A stretch of DNA of 64,000 nucleotides. It comes from Deltaproteobacteria bacterium. Its GTDB lineage: Bacteria; Desulfobacterota; Binatia; Binatales; Binataceae. The stretch covers positions 1 to 64,000 of the forward strand of contig DAHVFB010000003.1 in NCBI GenBank assembly GCA_027317185.1. The letters are read 5' to 3'. Positions 21,076 to 58,965 of this stretch are shown here, one piece after another; positions within the stretch are counted from its first letter, which is position 1, and each line of letters opens with the position of its first letter. The notes below the pieces were generated by a model that worked only from the letters and a program-made list of their open reading frames with translations, was not told the origin of the DNA and searched no databases. A program made the translations under genes and the position numbers.

Positions 21076-21750
21076 TCAGTTGCCGCTGCGTGGCTGTCCC
21101 AACGAATCCGCCAATTGCTGGCTCTTGGCGCGCAGGTCGGCCAGCAGGGTCGGGAATCCCCGATCGTTGATCACGCGGTTAAACTGATTGCGATAGTTGG
21201 CCACGATACTGATCGCATCCACCGTCACATCATATATTTTCCACTGATCGTTTTCCTGTTTGAGCAAGTAGTTAAGTACGATCGGCCGCCCCCCATTGGG
21301 CGAGGTAACATGGCTGCCGACCTGAACATAGCCCGGCGAAAGCTGGCTCTGTCCGGTAAAATGGACGGCCTGTCCCCGGTAATCGGAAATCTTGCTCAAA
21401 TATGAATCTTCGATGAAGGTGGTGAACACGTTGGTGAATTCGGTGCGCTGATTCGCCGACAGGGTCCGCCAGTGAATACCGAGCGCCGAACGCGACATTT
21501 CCGCAAAGTCGAAATTGTTCGCTACCAGATTCCGCAGCGTCTCCTGCTTTTGCTTGAGCGGTAGCTGATTGTTACGCAAGGTCGAGAGCGCCTGGTCAAC
21601 CACGTTTTTCACCACCGCCGCCGGATCACCCGCCGCGCGCGATGGAGCCGCCGCGATCACAATCGCAAACAAGGCTGCGGCAATAAGTCCACCCGCGACG
21701 CCAATGCGCCGCGATCTCGAGGTAACAAGCTCTAAATTCCTGTGTTTCAT
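21076..21750 (-). CDS. mlaC: MlaC-family periplasmic phospholipid-binding protein
   Basis: Periplasmic shuttle that carries phospholipid between MlaA and the MlaFEDB complex. A signal peptide with an AAPSRA-A cleavage context precedes the Ttg2D/MlaC domain: FDFAEMSRSALGIHWRTLS, FTNVFTTFIEDSYLSKI and WKIYDVTVDAISIVANYR are all family-typical. Length of 224 aa is normal. It lies 9 bp after mlaD on the same strand. Confidence 0.92.
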   Translation of the reverse strand: MKHRNLELVTSRSRRIGVAGGLIAAALFAIVIAAAPSRAAGDPAAVVKNVVDQALSTLRNNQLPLKQKQETLRNLVANNFDFAEMSRSALGIHWRTLSANQRTEFTNVFTTFIEDSYLSKISDYRGQAVHFTGQSQLSPGYVQVGSHVTSPNGGRPIVLNYLLKQENDQWKIYDVTVDAISIVANYRNQFNRVINDRGFPTLLADLRAKSQQLADSLGQPRSGN

Positions 21751-21759
21751 ATAGACTAA

Positions 21760-22356
21760 CTACTTATCCTTCCCTCTGTTGATGCCCGCGCCGGGACCAG
21801 GTTGGCTGGGCATGATGCTCGGAAATTTGCTCGCCGCGCTCGAACCGCCGGCGCTCGAATTGTTCGGCGCTGAATTGTTTGCGCCTGAGCTACCGGATCC
21901 GCCATTCGGACCCGAGTTATTAATTAGCTGACCAATTGCATCTTCCAGCACGAAAGCCGATTGGGTCTGCACGATCACGCCATCATTGGCCAGCATCTTT
22001 TCGCCCGCTCCGGGCTGAATCGCGACGTACTTATCGCCAATTATTCCGCTGGTTTTAATTGACGCGATCGCCTCGTCATCGACCTTAACCCCGGTTTTGA
22101 CGAACAATCCGACGTGCGCCCGGTAATTCTCCTCATTCAGCGCGATCGAACTGACATGGCCGATCGGAACCCCGGCCACCTCGATCCGATCGTTAGTTTT
22201 GAGTCCCGCGATATTATCGAAATCGGCGTACAACGTATATCCGGTGCGCTGAAACAGATCGACGCGCCCGAGCCGCAGAGACAAAAAGGCCAGCGCGGCG
22301 ATTCCCACGATCGCGAACAGCCCGACAATTAATTGCGTGGTCCGTGTAGCGTACAT
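21760..22356 (-). CDS. mlaD: MlaD-family MCE protein
   Basis: Inner-membrane-anchored, periplasmic MCE-domain protein that forms the hexameric lipid channel of the Mla system. One N-terminal membrane helix (LIVGLFAIVGIAALAFLS) precedes the MCE core, YTLYADFDNIAGLKTNDRIE, followed by VAGVPIGHVSSI and IKTSGIIGDKYVAI. The last ~55 residues are Gly/Ser/Asn-rich and low in complexity, longer than in E. coli MlaD and probably disordered. Confidence 0.93.
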   Translation of the reverse strand: MYATRTTQLIVGLFAIVGIAALAFLSLRLGRVDLFQRTGYTLYADFDNIAGLKTNDRIEVAGVPIGHVSSIALNEENYRAHVGLFVKTGVKVDDEAIASIKTSGIIGDKYVAIQPGAGEKMLANDGVIVQTQSAFVLEDAIGQLINNSGPNGGSGSSGANNSAPNNSSAGGSSAASKFPSIMPSQPGPGAGINRGKDK

Positions 22357-22364
22357 TTTAAACT

Positions 22365-23159
22365 TTATCCGGCCGCCGCCGGGCTTTCCTCCCCTGATGC
22401 TTTGCCTGCCAGAAAACGTTCAAAAAGCTCGTCATGCGCTGAGGTCACTTCCGCTACCGTTCCATAAACACGGATTTTACCTTCATGCATGAAGGCCACA
22501 TGGTCGGAAATCTCGAACACCGCCGGCACATCGTGACTGACCAGCGCGGCGGTTAAACCGAAGCGCTGCTGGGTCTGGCGCACCAAAGCATGAATCGCTC
22601 TCGTTCGCGATGGATCTAGTCCGGTGGTCGGCTCATCGAGCATGAGGATGCTGGGACGCCGAATCAAAGCCCGCGCCAGCGCCGCCCGTTTTTGCATTCC
22701 GCCGCTCAATTCCGATGGGTACTTATCGTCCATCCCTTCAAGCCCCACCGCCGCCAGCGTCTCGCGCACCCGGCTGGCTATCTCATCGCGGCTGAGCCTG
22801 GTCTTCTCCACCAGCGGAAAGGCGACGTTGTCGAACACCGGCATGGAGTCAAACAACGCGCCGGCCTGGAACAGCATGCCGAACTTCTCTCGCACCGCGT
22901 CGAGCCCGCCTCGGCTAACCGATGTCACATCGATACCATCAATAACGATCTTCCCTGAGTCAGGACGCAGCAAAGTGTTCAGATGCTTGAGAAATACCGT
23001 CTTGCCACATCCGCTGGGCCCCACGATGGTGGTGACTTTACCGCGCGGAAAATCGATGTTGACGCCGCGTAATACCTCCTGATGGCCAAAACTCCGCCGC
23101 AGATCGCGGATGCTAATCGAAATCGGAGAGGCTTTGCCGGCGGAGGTCGCGTTGGTCAT
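22365..23159 (-). CDS. mlaF: MlaF, ABC transporter ATP-binding protein
   Basis: Cytosolic ATPase of the Mla lipid transporter. Walker A is GPSGCGKTVFLK, the ABC signature LSGGMQKRAALARAL, Walker B ILMLDEPTTGLD, and the H-loop ALVSHD. Length (264 aa) and the neighbouring permease and MCE genes identify it as MlaF and not a generic ABC protein. No MlaB (STAS) gene is seen in the operon. Confidence 0.94.
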   Translation of the reverse strand: MTNATSAGKASPISISIRDLRRSFGHQEVLRGVNIDFPRGKVTTIVGPSGCGKTVFLKHLNTLLRPDSGKIVIDGIDVTSVSRGGLDAVREKFGMLFQAGALFDSMPVFDNVAFPLVEKTRLSRDEIASRVRETLAAVGLEGMDDKYPSELSGGMQKRAALARALIRRPSILMLDEPTTGLDPSRTRAIHALVRQTQQRFGLTAALVSHDVPAVFEISDHVAFMHEGKIRVYGTVAEVTSAHDELFERFLAGKASGEESPAAAG

Positions 23160-23175
23160 TTCAGGTAAAAGATCG

Positions 23176-23952
23176 TTACAGAAGAACAGATGTGAGGAAA
23201 TAGTCCCAAAGCAGGATAAGTATGCTCGACATAACCACGGCCTCGGTGGTCGCGCGGCTCACGCCGGTCGCCATACGTTGCGCGTGATAGCCTTTATAAC
23301 AGCAGATCCACATTACCACGATTCCAAAAACGATTGACTTGTAGAGTCCGGTCATAATGTCGTGCGCGGTAAGGTTCTGGCTGATGCCATTCATGTAACT
23401 TGATCCCGGCGCGCCCATCAAATCGACCCCGATCACATAGCCACCGATAATCCCAATCGAATCGAACATTCCGGTCAGCAGGGGAAAGCTGATTAGACCG
23501 GCCAGTATCCGTGGCGATACCAGGTACTGCACCGGATTGATCGCCATCACCGTAAGCGCGTCGATCTGCTCGGTCGCCTGCATGGAACCCAGTTCCGCGG
23601 CCATCGCCGAACCGGCCCGCGCCGCGATCATCAGCGCCGCCAATACCGGTCCCAACTCGCGCACCAGCGTCAGCGCTACAACCGATCCCAGCGCCCCCTC
23701 CGAAGCGAAGCGGCTCAAGGTATTGTAGCCCTGCAGACCCAGCACCATCCCCGTGAACGCACCAATCAGCAGAATCAGGAAACTGGAGTCGGCCCCAATG
23801 GACCGCAACTGCCGGATCGCGAGCCGCGGCTTGTAGGGCGGCATCACGATGTAAAACACAGCGGTAAAGAGAAAAAAAACAAAGTTACCCAGGGTCTCGA
23901 TCTGGTCTATAATCCACGCCCCCAGGCGCTCGATTGATCGCACCATCTTCAT
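23176..23952 (-). CDS. mlaE: MlaE, lipid-transport permease
   Basis: Integral membrane permease of the Mla ABC transporter, with about five to six hydrophobic segments. Family patterns include GAFTGMVLGLQGYNTLSRF, ELGPVLAALMIAARAGSAMA, the cytosolic coupling helix ELGSMQATEQIDALTVM, and GIVVMWICCYKGYHA near the C-terminus. It is the first mla gene of the operon and begins 10 bp after the cofC stop, so cofC and mla may be co-transcribed. Confidence 0.94.
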   Translation of the reverse strand: MKMVRSIERLGAWIIDQIETLGNFVFFLFTAVFYIVMPPYKPRLAIRQLRSIGADSSFLILLIGAFTGMVLGLQGYNTLSRFASEGALGSVVALTLVRELGPVLAALMIAARAGSAMAAELGSMQATEQIDALTVMAINPVQYLVSPRILAGLISFPLLTGMFDSIGIIGGYVIGVDLMGAPGSSYMNGISQNLTAHDIMTGLYKSIVFGIVVMWICCYKGYHAQRMATGVSRATTEAVVMSSILILLWDYFLTSVLL

Positions 23953-23962
23953 CGAGCTTGAC

Positions 23963-24607
23963 TCAGGCTGGAGTGAGTCCGAGGCGCGACAGGTGATTGA
24001 AGGTATGAGTTGAACTTGGAATGCGCACGAAATCGGCCAGATCGCTCATCAAATCCAGATCCATCGCCGGACCCGCCAACCGCACCAACTGGCATCGCAA
24101 TCCAGCCTGTTCGCAACTTTCGAGATGCCGCATAAGACTTTGACGTCCAAATCGTGTCGGTATCGCATCGGGCGGCATCCGCGCAATCATATTGGTTCCG
24201 GAAAGCTCACGCGAGGGAACCATCGCCACCCCTTTTTCATTTGAGAGCGCGGCGAAGACTGTATCGATATCCGAACCTCTGATCAGAGGTATATCGGACA
24301 ACGCCACGCAGACGGCTTCGGCCCCCTGCGCGATCAGGAGTTCGGTGCCGAGCCGGACCGCGGCGTTCAAGCCGCGAGGAAACTGCTCATCGATTGTGAT
24401 CGCTCCTGCCCCTCGCGCGATCGCGAGCAGGCGTTCATCCGAACTGACCAACGCCACCTGGTCGGGGGTCCGCGCCGCAATCGCAGCCGCCAGCACATCA
24501 CGAAACATCGCTTCCGCGAGCAACTGGCGCTCGGCCGCCGGCATCGCCGGACCGAGGCGCGTCTTCGCGAACTCAAGTTGCTTGGCGGCTATCAGTGCAA
24601 CACGCAC
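23963..24607 (-). CDS. cofC: 2-phospho-L-lactate/PEP guanylyltransferase, F420 biosynthesis
   Basis: Nucleotidyltransferase of the CofC/FbiD family, which activates 2-phospholactate or PEP with GTP for coenzyme F420 assembly. The N-terminal signature AAKQLEFAKTRLGP with nearby LLAEAMFRDVL, the ALSDIPLI metal-binding segment, and FGRQSLMRHLE all fit. Length of 214 aa is standard. No cofD, cofE or fbiC is in the window. Its presence supports F420 use by the LLM-class oxidoreductases at 7.5, 29 and 55 kb. It reads into mlaE. Confidence 0.85.
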   Translation of the reverse strand: MRVALIAAKQLEFAKTRLGPAMPAAERQLLAEAMFRDVLAAAIAARTPDQVALVSSDERLLAIARGAGAITIDEQFPRGLNAAVRLGTELLIAQGAEAVCVALSDIPLIRGSDIDTVFAALSNEKGVAMVPSRELSGTNMIARMPPDAIPTRFGRQSLMRHLESCEQAGLRCQLVRLAGPAMDLDLMSDLADFVRIPSSTHTFNHLSRLGLTPA

Positions 24608-49995: not shown

Positions 49996-50646
49996 ATGGC
50001 ACGATTGCGCAAGGCGGGGCGCGTATGGCGGGACGCGACCGCGCGCGCGGACGCCGAGCGGATACTGATCGGCGACGCGGCTGCATCGGCGCTGACGATC
50101 GATCTTCCGGCGCTGTTTCCTTCGAAGGCGCTGCTCGAGGTCGAATTGGGCGCGGGACGCGGCGATTTTATCATGGCGCGGGCGATGGCCTGTCCCGACC
50201 GCAATTTTCTCGCCGTGGAACTGGCCGCCTCGGTCGCGCGGGTGTTTGCGGCTCGCGCGGGACGGCGCGGCTTGAATAATTTAAGAATCATCCGGGCGGA
50301 TGCGCGGACCCTGGTGAATCTGTTGCTTCCCGATGGAAGCGTCAGCGTCTATCACATCTACTTCCCTGACCCGTGGCCCAAAGCGCGGCACGAAAAACAT
50401 CGGATGGTATCGCCGTCGATGGTTGCCGCACTGGCGCGGACGCTGGCGACGGCTGGGCTGATTCATGTCGCGAGCGACGTCGAGCCCTGGGCGCGCCAGA
50501 TGTTCTCGATGCTGACGGCGGGTGGTTTCAGCGAAAGTCCGGCGGAAGTTCCCGGCGCGCGGTTTTCCGGCTTCGGGCGCAAGTACCTTGCGGCGGGCCG
50601 GCCGATTTTCGCTAGCAGTTTTAGGCGCCCTGATCTGACAGAATAA
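49996..50646 (+). CDS. trmB: tRNA (guanine-N7-)-methyltransferase
   Basis: Methylates G46 in the tRNA variable loop. LEVELGAGRGDFIMARA is the SAM-binding motif, and the signature YFPDPWPKARHEKHRM carries the catalytic acid and tRNA-binding residues. Length of 216 aa is normal. The start ATG lacks an obvious ribosome-binding site. It is followed by the BamD-like gene after about 70 bp. Confidence 0.93.
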   Translation: MARLRKAGRVWRDATARADAERILIGDAAASALTIDLPALFPSKALLEVELGAGRGDFIMARAMACPDRNFLAVELAASVARVFAARAGRRGLNNLRIIRADARTLVNLLLPDGSVSVYHIYFPDPWPKARHEKHRMVSPSMVAALARTLATAGLIHVASDVEPWARQMFSMLTAGGFSESPAEVPGARFSGFGRKYLAAGRPIFASSFRRPDLTE

Positions 50647-50714: not shown

Positions 50715-52184
50715 ATGAAACGTGCTCTGTTTATAAGCTGGACGCTGGTTTTGGTGTATGCCTGCGCGGGATGCAGTACGCGCAAAATTCCCACCGGTCA
50801 GGATTACTATAGTCAGGCCCAAGCTTACTATTCGATGGGTGAATATCGCGGCGCGATCGATAATTACCAGCATCTTATCGATCAGTATCCGTTCAGCCCG
50901 TACGCCGAAGACGCCGAACTGCGTATCGGTCTCGCTTACTACAAGATGGGCGAGTATGCGCAGGCGGTTCAGTCGCTCAACGATTTTCAGCGGATGCATC
51001 CGACCAGCAAGAATCTGGCGCTGGCCACTTATTACCTCGGCATGACCTACTATAACCGGACTGGCGAGCCGGACCGTGACCAAAGCAACACGACGCTGGC
51101 GCTGCGGCAATTTGATCTGATCGAGCAACGTTTTCCCGAGAGCGAATTCGGTGAACTGGCGCGGCAGCGGATTGTCATCTGCCGAGAACTGCTCGCGCGC
51201 AACGAGCTGTACATCGGCGACTACTATTCCTCGATCGCCAATTACCGGGCCAGCGAGTCGCGAATGGCCGAGCTGATGGAGAAGTATCCGGACTCGCCGG
51301 TCGCGCCCGAGGCGTTATACAAGCTGGGCGTCGCGCTTTCCAAAGAGGGCAAGAAGTACTCGGCGGCGCAGGCCTTCACCGCGCTGACGATGCATTATCC
51401 TAAAAGCAAATACGCTGCGCCGGCCAAACAGGCGCTTGCCAAGCTGAATCAGCCGGTCGATACCGAAGACGACCCGCTGCGGATGGTGCTGGCCGAAAGC
51501 GGGTTCAATCCGGATCAGAGTTCGGCGTTCGATCGGCAGGTGGTAAAAGCCCGCATGGCTTCGGCCGCCAATATGGCCGAGGGCGCTGCCTATGGAAGCG
51601 ACGGCCTGCCCAATCTGAATCGCGCGGCCTCGGCAACCCATGTGCAGATCGCATCGGCGGGATACGGAAAAACGCCGGTGACGCTGCGAACTATCCGGCT
51701 TTCGTCCGCCGACCCACCCCTGTCGGTAATTTTCGACCTGAGCGGACCGGTGATGTATTCAAAGGAATTCCAGGCCAGTTCGAATTCCGACACCCTAACG
51801 ATAATGCTTAAGAACACCTCCCCCGGTACCCATCTCGATCAGCATCTGGTGTTCGACAAGTCGATTTTCCGCGACGTACAGGTAAGCCCGCAGGGAAACG
51901 ATACCGAGGTAACCGTAAATACGACTGCGATCTCCCGTTTTGCGATTGTGCCATTGGAGGAGCCGGCCCGCTTGCTGGTCACCTTCACACCGCCTGATAA
52001 CGACTCGAGTACTACCACATCGGATATGGAAACCCCGCCGCCGCAGATGCCCGAAGCTCCGCCGGATGCGGGGGTGACCAATTCACCGGATACCGGAGAT
52101 GACAGCGCACCACCCGCCGCGGCAGCGGGTGCCGATGAAGGCGCCCCGCAGTTACCGCCGGGCAGTCCACCGCCGGTGCTCTGA
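50715..52184 (+). CDS. bamD: BamD-like lipoprotein with C-terminal AMIN-like extension
   Basis: An outer-membrane assembly lipoprotein of 489 aa. The signal ends in YACAGCSTRK (lipidated Cys). TPR units typical of BamD follow: YYSQAQAYYSMGEYRGAIDN, then YQHLIDQYPFSPYAEDAELR, the GMTYYNRTGEPDRDQ region and FDLIEQRFPESEF. After ~residue 265 the chain continues with a linker and an AMIN-like beta domain (PPLSVIFDLSGPVMYSKEF, then LDQHLVFDKSIFRDVQV). It ends in a Pro/Ala-rich tail. Ordinary BamD stops near 250-290 aa, so the second half is an addition that may bind peptidoglycan or a secretion partner. Confidence 0.82.
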   Translation: MKRALFISWTLVLVYACAGCSTRKIPTGQDYYSQAQAYYSMGEYRGAIDNYQHLIDQYPFSPYAEDAELRIGLAYYKMGEYAQAVQSLNDFQRMHPTSKNLALATYYLGMTYYNRTGEPDRDQSNTTLALRQFDLIEQRFPESEFGELARQRIVICRELLARNELYIGDYYSSIANYRASESRMAELMEKYPDSPVAPEALYKLGVALSKEGKKYSAAQAFTALTMHYPKSKYAAPAKQALAKLNQPVDTEDDPLRMVLAESGFNPDQSSAFDRQVVKARMASAANMAEGAAYGSDGLPNLNRAASATHVQIASAGYGKTPVTLRTIRLSSADPPLSVIFDLSGPVMYSKEFQASSNSDTLTIMLKNTSPGTHLDQHLVFDKSIFRDVQVSPQGNDTEVTVNTTAISRFAIVPLEEPARLLVTFTPPDNDSSTTTSDMETPPPQMPEAPPDAGVTNSPDTGDDSAPPAAAAGADEGAPQLPPGSPPPVL

Positions 52185-56402: not shown

Positions 56403-57704
56403 ATGGAACCGATCAGAATCGTTCACTATCTCAATCAGTTCTTCGGTCAACTCGGCGGCGAGGAGTTGGCCGGGATCAAACCTCAAATCAAATCCGAAGC
56501 GATCGGGCCCGGCCGCGTTTTGCAAGCGCGGCTCGGCGCGAGCTTCGAGGTGGTGGCCACCGCGATTTGCGGCGACAACACCTTTGCCGATAATCCAGAA
56601 GCCGCTGCCGAAGACCTTACCGCACTGATTTCCGAATTTCGTCCGCAAATCTTAATCGCCGGGCCGGCGTTCAATTCAGGCCGTTACGGACAAGCCTGCG
56701 GCCAGCTTTGCGCTTCAATCCAGGAGAAGCTCGCGATCCCGGCGATCACCGGGATGTACCAGGAGAATCCTGCCGTCGATCAGTTCCGCAACCGGGTCTT
56801 GATTGTGCGAACCGGCCCCACCGCCCGCACGATGGGCGAGGCGATAGACCAGATCGTGTCGCTGGTCAAACGGATCGCGGCCGGCGATCCGCTCGATCGT
56901 CCGGCGGAGCTCGGATGCTTCCCGCATGGAATGAAACGTCCGGTTGTGCGCGAACAGATCGCCGCGCGGCGCGCGATCGATATGCTGCTCAGCAAGCTCA
57001 CCGGTCAGCCTTTCACCACCGAAATGAGCGTGCCGGTCTTCGATCGCGTCGAGCCAACCAGGCTCAAGCTTCCATTGTCCGAGGCCACCGTCGCGCTGGT
57101 CACCGACGGCGGTCTGGTAGCCAAAGGCAATCCAGAGCGGATGCCTAATGGCTATACCGATCGCATCACCGCTATCCCGATTCATGGACTCGACCGATTC
57201 ACGACCGATATCGTCGAGGCTCACCACGGTGGCTACGATACGCAGTTCGTCAATCAGGATCTCAATCGGCTGACGCCATTGGACGCCGCCCGCGAACTTG
57301 AGCGCAACGGTGTGATCGGCAAGCTGCACGAGACGGTTTACGCCACCGCCGGACTCGGCATGTCGATCTCAAACGCAAAAAAAGTTGGACGGGAAATTGG
57401 ACGGCGACTGCTGGATCAAGGTGTTCAGGCGGTCATCCTCACCTCGACGTGAGGAACCAGCACGCGCTGCGGAGCGGCGCTGGCAAAGGAAATCGAGCGG
57501 ATGGGAATCGCGACTGCGCAAATCTGCTCGATGAAGCAGGTAGCCGCGATGGTCGGTTCGCCGCGTATCGTGACCGGCCGCAGCGTGCTGCATCCAACCG
57601 GAGATCCGGCGCTCGCTCCGGAAGCGGAGCAGATGCTCAGGCGCGGGATCGTTGCCGATGCGATCCGGGCGCTGGCCGCCGACGGCATCCCACATGCGGC
57701 TTGA
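56403..57704 (+). CDS. grdB: Glycine/sarcosine/betaine reductase component B, selenoprotein subunit (Sec at TGA 57450)
   Basis: Substrate-binding selenoprotein of a Grd-type reductase. The track ends it at the TGA 57450-57452, but the frame stays open and homologous: upstream ILTST, then Sec, then GTSTRCGAALAKEIERMG, matching the classical GrdB motif TSTUGTCTRCGA. Readthrough gives 433 aa with Sec at residue 350, close to the clostridial protein in size and position. Other family blocks are GPAFNSGRYGQACGQLC, GMYQENPAVDQFRNRV and VEAHHGGYDTQFVNQDLNRL. A hairpin right after the TGA can serve as SECIS. Substrate class (glycine, sarcosine, betaine or other) is open. Its end overlaps the grdE-like start by 11 bp. 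Confidence 0.9.
57457..57483 (+). promoter_or_regulatory. Putative bacterial SECIS element in grdB
   Basis: Starting four bases after the TGA, CCAGC pairs with GCTGG, and inside it CGCT pairs with AGCG around the loop GCGG. The apical loop lies about 19-20 bases from the TGA, the spacing seen in E. coli fdhF. The hairpin lies within the coding sequence, as bacterial SECIS elements must. Confidence 0.55.
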
Positions 57705-58965
57705 GATTAGAGCCGCTGCGGTCAATCGCGCCGTTTTCGGCATCAGCACCAACCTGAACGACCGCACGCTGACTGTCGCGCGCGACGAACTAGCTCGCCT
57801 GCTCGGGGCTGACTCGCGTCTGACCGAAATACAAATCGAATTGGCGAATCCCGGCGAGGATTGCCGGATAACCGGCATCTTCGATGTCTTCGAGCCGCGC
57901 TACAAAGCGACCGGGCCAAATTTCCCAGGCGTGATCGATCGCATCGGGCCCGTGGGCGATGGCGTCACGGCGGTGGCGCGCGGCGCCGCCATAATGGTTA
58001 TGAACGCGCTGCCCGATCGGCATAAGCTCACCGTCGATATGACCGGACCGGCCGCGGAATTCTCGCCCTACTCGCATACCGCCAATATCTGCGTGCGGGC
58101 TCAGCCGGCCGCCGGCGTCGAGCGCCCAGCCTATTACCGGGCGCTCAAGGAGATCGGCGTGAAGGCGTCGGGTTACCTCGGCGAGGCGGCCAATCGCGCG
58201 CAGGCCGATTCGGTCGAGGTGCTGGAGCTTCCCCATCAGTCGGATGATACCGGCAGACCGCGCGTCGCCTACATCTATATGCTGGCCTCGCAGCAGATGC
58301 CGACTGAGGCCGACGAACCCATCCTGTATGGCGATAACGTCCGCACGCTGCTACCGACAGTGATTCATCCGAACGAAATTCTCGACGGCGCCATTGTCGC
58401 GCCCTATTGGAATTTCGGCGGCGACACCTATGCGATCCAGAACCATCCGATGATTTGCGAGCTTTATCGCCGCCATCGCAACGATCTGGCCTTCGCCGGC
58501 GTGATCGCAATTATCGCAGCCGAAACCGAGGCCGGGCGAACGCGCACCGCAATCATGGCGGCGAACCTGGCCCGCGAGACGTTGCGCGCTGACGCGGTGG
58601 TGCTGACCAAGTACGGCGGCGGAATTCCGGAATCCGCCGCGATGGAAACCTACGACGCCTGCGAGGCGCTCGGAATGAAGGGTGCGATGGTGCTATGGAC
58701 GCATGGCGGCGACGGGCGAATTGAAGGATCGCTGACCTTCATGTCGCCGCGCGCCGACGCCGTCGTCACTTGCGGAATCAACGAACAGGCGATCGACTTG
58801 CCGCCCGTCTCCCGCGTGATCGGCAGTTCCACGATCGGGCCATTGATTATGGAATCGGAAGACGATGTTCGTCCCGCGAACGGTCCGCTTCATCTTCGTT
58901 TTCTGTTTCTGGCGGGCGCGGCCGATCAGCTCGGCGGTGGCCGCCGCTCAATCGAGGAATACTAG
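57694..58965 (+). CDS. grdE: GrdE-like component B subunit lacking the pyruvoyl-forming Cys
   Basis: A 423-aa homologue of the GrdE proprotein, the carbonyl-bearing partner of GrdB. GrdE-like blocks include the start MRLEIRAAAVNRAVFG, RVAYIYMLASQQMPTE, LPTVIHPNEILDGAIV and HPMICELYRRHRNDL. In clostridial GrdE the DGAIV block runs into a GNC sequence whose Cys (about 242) self-cleaves to give pyruvoyl. Here it reads APYWNFGGDTY, with Trp at residue 239 in that place, so cleavage by this route should not happen. ATG 57694 is favoured over the tracked 57652 because it begins the homology. It may act as an uncleaved structural subunit or bind substrate differently. Confidence 0.82.
   Translation: MRLEIRAAAVNRAVFGISTNLNDRTLTVARDELARLLGADSRLTEIQIELANPGEDCRITGIFDVFEPRYKATGPNFPGVIDRIGPVGDGVTAVARGAAIMVMNALPDRHKLTVDMTGPAAEFSPYSHTANICVRAQPAAGVERPAYYRALKEIGVKASGYLGEAANRAQADSVEVLELPHQSDDTGRPRVAYIYMLASQQMPTEADEPILYGDNVRTLLPTVIHPNEILDGAIVAPYWNFGGDTYAIQNHPMICELYRRHRNDLAFAGVIAIIAAETEAGRTRTAIMAANLARETLRADAVVLTKYGGGIPESAAMETYDACEALGMKGAMVLWTHGGDGRIEGSLTFMSPRADAVVTCGINEQAIDLPPVSRVIGSSTIGPLIMESEDDVRPANGPLHLRFLFLAGAADQLGGGRRSIEEY

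Follow-up and report, generated by a model that had tools for sequence, protein, structure and literature searches.

A sole BamD fused to an AMIN domain: a candidate link between outer-membrane protein assembly and peptidoglycan in one bacterial family

How bacteria coordinate the insertion of outer-membrane proteins with growth of the cell wall is under active study. In E. coli, this coordination goes through peptidoglycan (PG) contacts made by several subunits of the BAM complex, and mature PG inhibits BAM (PMC9242858). Elsewhere, it goes through added OmpA-domain subunits: the Caulobacter complex is anchored to PG by Pal, and RmpM associates with the BAM complex of Neisseria (PMC2797634). 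The BAM component BamD (YfiO/ComL) is a lipoprotein made of a TPR array. BamD proteins of solved structure, such as those of Rhodothermus marinus (3qky) and E. coli (2yhc), are 200-250 residues long and end soon after the TPRs. AMIN domains are found in other envelope proteins. The AMIN domain of the amidase AmiC binds septal PG, and targeting of the type IVa pilus machine to division sites and poles requires the AMIN domains of PilQ (PMC10653833, PMC5285504). FliO has acquired an AMIN domain in particular lineages, including Campylobacterota (PMC12403147). No published description of a BamD-AMIN fusion was found in a literature search. The protein described here, in which a BamD is extended by a conserved segment, a linker and an AMIN domain, is a new architecture assembled from two known parts.

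The fusion gene (50715-52184, +) is an uninterrupted open frame of 489 codons in the window, the 64,000-nucleotide stretch of DNA that was analysed. Its product is a 489-residue lipoprotein. By inspection, residues 1-20 (50715..50774) form a signal peptide with a lipobox cysteine, C20, which is presumed to be lipidated. A hydrophobic N-terminal stretch with a cysteine at the same position was seen by inspection in the family orthologues that have a complete start. The remaining parts, all on the + strand, are a BamD TPR region (residues 27-245; 50793..51449), a conserved post-TPR segment (residues 246-266; 51450..51512), a variable linker whose length differs among relatives (residues 267-319; 51513..51671), the AMIN domain (residues 320-426; 51672..51992) and a Pro/Ala/Asp-rich tail with low pLDDT (residues 427-489; 51993..52181). 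The tail is long only in this protein and a few relatives, and most relatives lack it. Upstream of bamD, across a 68-bp gap, lies a gene for a tRNA (guanine-N7) methyltransferase (49996..50646, +), named trmB-like from inspection of its sequence. A trmB match adjoins bamD in most loci of the taxonomic family and in none of the loci read from the class outside it, and the trmB-like gene is a probable operon partner of bamD. No promoter or terminator match was found in the bamD region.

Two other regions of the window were read. A GrdB/GrdF-type selenoprotein gene (56403-57704, +) has a TGA at 57450-57452, exactly in the motif ILTSTUGTSTRCG, and its frame reads on to 57704 if this codon is translated as selenocysteine. 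It is followed by a gene for a GrdG/FarE-like subunit (57652-58965). These sequences suggest that the organism uses selenocysteine and has a reductase of the sarcosine/betaine/fluoroacetate type. Judged by eye, the genes at 21076-24045 (-) resemble a lipid-transport operon of the Mla type, with a permease, an ATPase, an MCE protein and an MlaC-like protein.

The N-terminal half of the fusion protein is unambiguously BamD, as the original prediction of a standard TPR lipoprotein had stated. Residues 1-245 make up a full BamD (TIGR03302: 193.5 bits, E-value: 3.8e-57, cut-off 81.4 bits; PF13525: 143.5 bits), and the matches of the full-length model in Foldseek are BamD structures (3qky, 5waq, 2yhc and others). 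The prediction had also asked whether a normal BamD exists elsewhere in the genome. A PF13525 search of the 93%-complete assembly found no second BamD; it returned the fusion gene, which is thus the sole copy detected, and one weak place. The latter is a 321-residue TPR protein encoded on the same contig as, and near, a Pal-like OmpA-domain protein; because of this neighbor it is probably CpoB. The genome encodes two OmpA-domain proteins, as well as two Omp85-family proteins (C44 and C234) that are candidates for the BAM partner BamA. No part of the whole protein is better conserved than the post-TPR segment (DPL..VLAESGF). A shorter form of it (DPL..L) is present in some BamDs of the class that have no AMIN domain, and it possibly contacts BamA.

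The phylum contains amidases of similar layout. In L073, L075 and L077, which are apparently exported, a helical-repeat region is likewise followed by an AMIN domain, but these proteins carry a catalytic Amidase_3 domain and BamD-AMIN does not. An N-terminal region that looks TPR-like by eye, joined to AMIN and Amidase_3, was seen in L073, L075, L077, L078, L080, L083 and L084, so that the combination of repeats and AMIN recurs; this reading is by eye, and a scan of L073 gave no Pfam TPR or YfiO match. Given such proteins, the fusion could be imagined as a TPR-AMIN amidase that has lost its catalytic domain and not a BamD at all. This is highly improbable: the protein scores 193 bits with TIGR03302 and aligns with the AMIN-less BamDs of the class, no other BamD was found in the genome, and a separate AMIN-Amidase_3 protein is present there.

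The C-terminal domain is, on profile and model comparisons, an AMIN domain. Its score with PF11741 (AMIN; cut-off 20.5 bits) lies slightly under the cut-off when the full protein is scanned (18.2 bits) and above it for the isolated domain (22.2 bits, E-value: 1.5e-4). PF11741 matches 12 of 21 family members at E-values of 0.1 or less, the best being 1.1e-5. When an alignment of the 21 family domains was compared by hhalign with an alignment of 12 AMIN domains from the same phylum, 11 of them from Amidase_3 proteins, the two matched over 104 columns with a probability of 97.9% (E-value: 3.6e-13). AlphaFold2 predicts eight strands in 4+4 order; the model was built with two sequences in the alignment and is of moderate confidence (pLDDT 65). 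Its top Foldseek match in the PDB is AmiC (4bin; probability 1.00, TMq 0.67, E-value: 0.013), and the second is the B2 domain of PilQ (4aqz; probability 0.97). No match of this model falls below an E-value of 0.001, and the next matches are small heat-shock proteins, with similar E-values and much poorer rmsd. When PDB sequences were searched directly with a profile, only PilQ was retrieved, at a non-significant E-value of 0.61. The original prediction of an AMIN-like second half therefore holds for the fold; its boundaries (265-489) do not, since the domain covers residues 320-426. That prediction had named a separate canonical BamD together with a model lacking the AMIN fold as the outcome that would speak against it, and neither was found.

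In local HMMER alignments, the second half of the domain matched the first half of the PilQ AMIN and of the Pfam model. A circular permutation was considered and rejected: exchanging the two halves in five members did not improve the score overall, and there are matches along the full length in the native order. The crossed matches are explained by the pseudo-symmetry of AMIN. The domain is not the only AMIN of the genome. In a PF11741 search of the whole genome it was the sole match over the cut-off (21.5 bits), and the second match (C47, 13.2 bits) was below it. The single Amidase_3 protein, however, also carries an AMIN domain that exceeds the cut-off when scanned as protein (22.2 bits), so the genome search had missed one. 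No AMIN-bearing secretin was among the matches of that search.

The BamD domain shares with the AMIN domains of AmiC and PilQ the 4+4 strand fold and a full-length profile match. It differs from them in its C-terminal position and in lacking several residues conserved in amidase AMINs, and forms a subfamily of its own. The residues compared are those conserved in amidase AMINs (two R-V-V-x-D motifs, V-R-x-G-Q and P-x-R-L-x-x-D), which are not a formal defining feature of the domain. In the BamD domain, Ser replaces the Arg of TRVVLDL, Pro replaces the Gln of VR.GQ, and the first P.RLY.DL has lost its Asp. The Arg of VRVVLD is replaced by Glu or Thr, and the last Asp by Thr. The domain retains the terminal P-x-R-L, the P-V and the Asp of the first strand pair. 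The BamD AMINs of the family have a conserved motif of their own, HxVFDRSIFRDCD. As several of the amidase residues are replaced, the ligand could differ: the binding face may be changed, and AMIN might bind a protein or a modified form of the wall. The same replacements, together with the family motif, favor a domain that docks on a protein (another subunit of BAM, a partner in the outer membrane or a client) and not on PG. There is a precedent in Campylobacter jejuni, where FliO needs its AMIN domain to keep FlhB stable (PMC12403147). Protein docking is nevertheless rather unlikely, as the nearest profile relatives of the domain are the AMINs of peptidoglycan amidases.

The fusion is a property of one taxonomic family, whose members we take to be soil bacteria. 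A profile built from the family domains detects it in 39 of the family's 41 genomes. One of the remaining two (G018) has no detectable BamD, and the other (G005) has a contig that ends inside bamD. In the family loci that were read, the domain lies within the BamD frame, save for a few cuts at contig ends and for G070. In the latter, an apparent split gene was rejected: undetermined bases, read as X in both translations, lie where one frame gives way to the other and mark an assembly gap. The fusion was searched for within the phylum, and beyond the class by sample. BamDs were also read from nine families elsewhere in the class, and none has an AMIN domain; the only other matches of the profile in the class are AMIN-Amidase_3 proteins, from family f12. 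Among 395 sampled genomes of the phylum, 12 matches outside the family were read; 11 are Amidase_3 proteins, most of them with the N-terminal region that looks TPR-like by eye, and in the twelfth AMIN is joined to a long C-terminal part rich in beta structure. This distribution looks like, and probably reflects, one acquisition of the domain by the ancestor of the family. FliO is likewise a core component of a machine in the cell envelope and has gained AMIN in a lineage-specific manner, but it belongs to flagellar export in the inner membrane and BamD-AMIN to outer-membrane protein assembly.

Within the family, pairwise identity averages 61% for the TPR region, 70% for the post-TPR segment, 26% for the linker and 57% for the AMIN domain, which has 16 columns that are invariant across the family alignment. 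Conservation of the domain while the linker diverges points to purifying selection on it. It is thus scarcely credible that the AMIN domain is an unselected passenger on BamD: an unselected domain would hardly keep this level of identity and these invariant columns beside a linker and tail that have diverged.

The proposed model for BamD-AMIN, to which we give a probability of about 0.6 from the sequence comparisons and from analogy with AmiC, PilQ and BAM complexes elsewhere, is as follows. The TPR part would act as an ordinary BamD within the BAM complex, anchored in the outer membrane by its lipid. The linker, if flexible, would let the AMIN domain reach the PG layer. There, AMIN would attach the complex either to the wall as such or to PG of one kind, septal PG for instance, and the insertion of outer-membrane proteins would thereby be coupled to the cell wall. 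The original prediction had suggested such a coupling to PG, or else to a secretin-like partner; the former is plausible from what is published on AMIN function. PG is proposed as the ligand because the domain profile, elsewhere in the class and phylum, finds mostly the AMINs of Amidase_3 peptidoglycan amidases. The role would be the one proposed for Pal in Caulobacter and RmpM in Neisseria. Those are separate OmpA-domain subunits, whereas the candidate anchor of this BamD is fused in cis and has another fold. The two OmpA-domain proteins of the genome count against the need for such an anchor, since wall anchoring is not otherwise missing.

Within this wall-anchor model, the AMIN domain may serve less to hold BAM mechanically than to steer it to the division site or the poles. 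The binding of AmiC to septal PG, and the proposal that the PilQ AMINs bind septal and polar PG (PMC10653833, PMC5285504), would fit such a role, and the AMIN of the single Amidase_3 protein could read the same mark as that of BamD. In E. coli, however, BAM has no such domain and yet is most active at division sites (PMC9242858), and we regard localisation as the main function as doubtful. In a further, tentative proposal, less likely than not, an entire family has made a core BAM subunit a sensor of the cell wall: the AMIN domain of BamD would read the condition or location of PG and so direct where outer-membrane proteins are inserted.

If the AMIN domain does bind the wall in the manner that we propose, this natural fusion would be a direct, covalent form of the link between BAM and the cell wall. 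It would also offer a simple construct with which to ask whether tethering BAM to the wall alters the place and rate of outer-membrane protein insertion.
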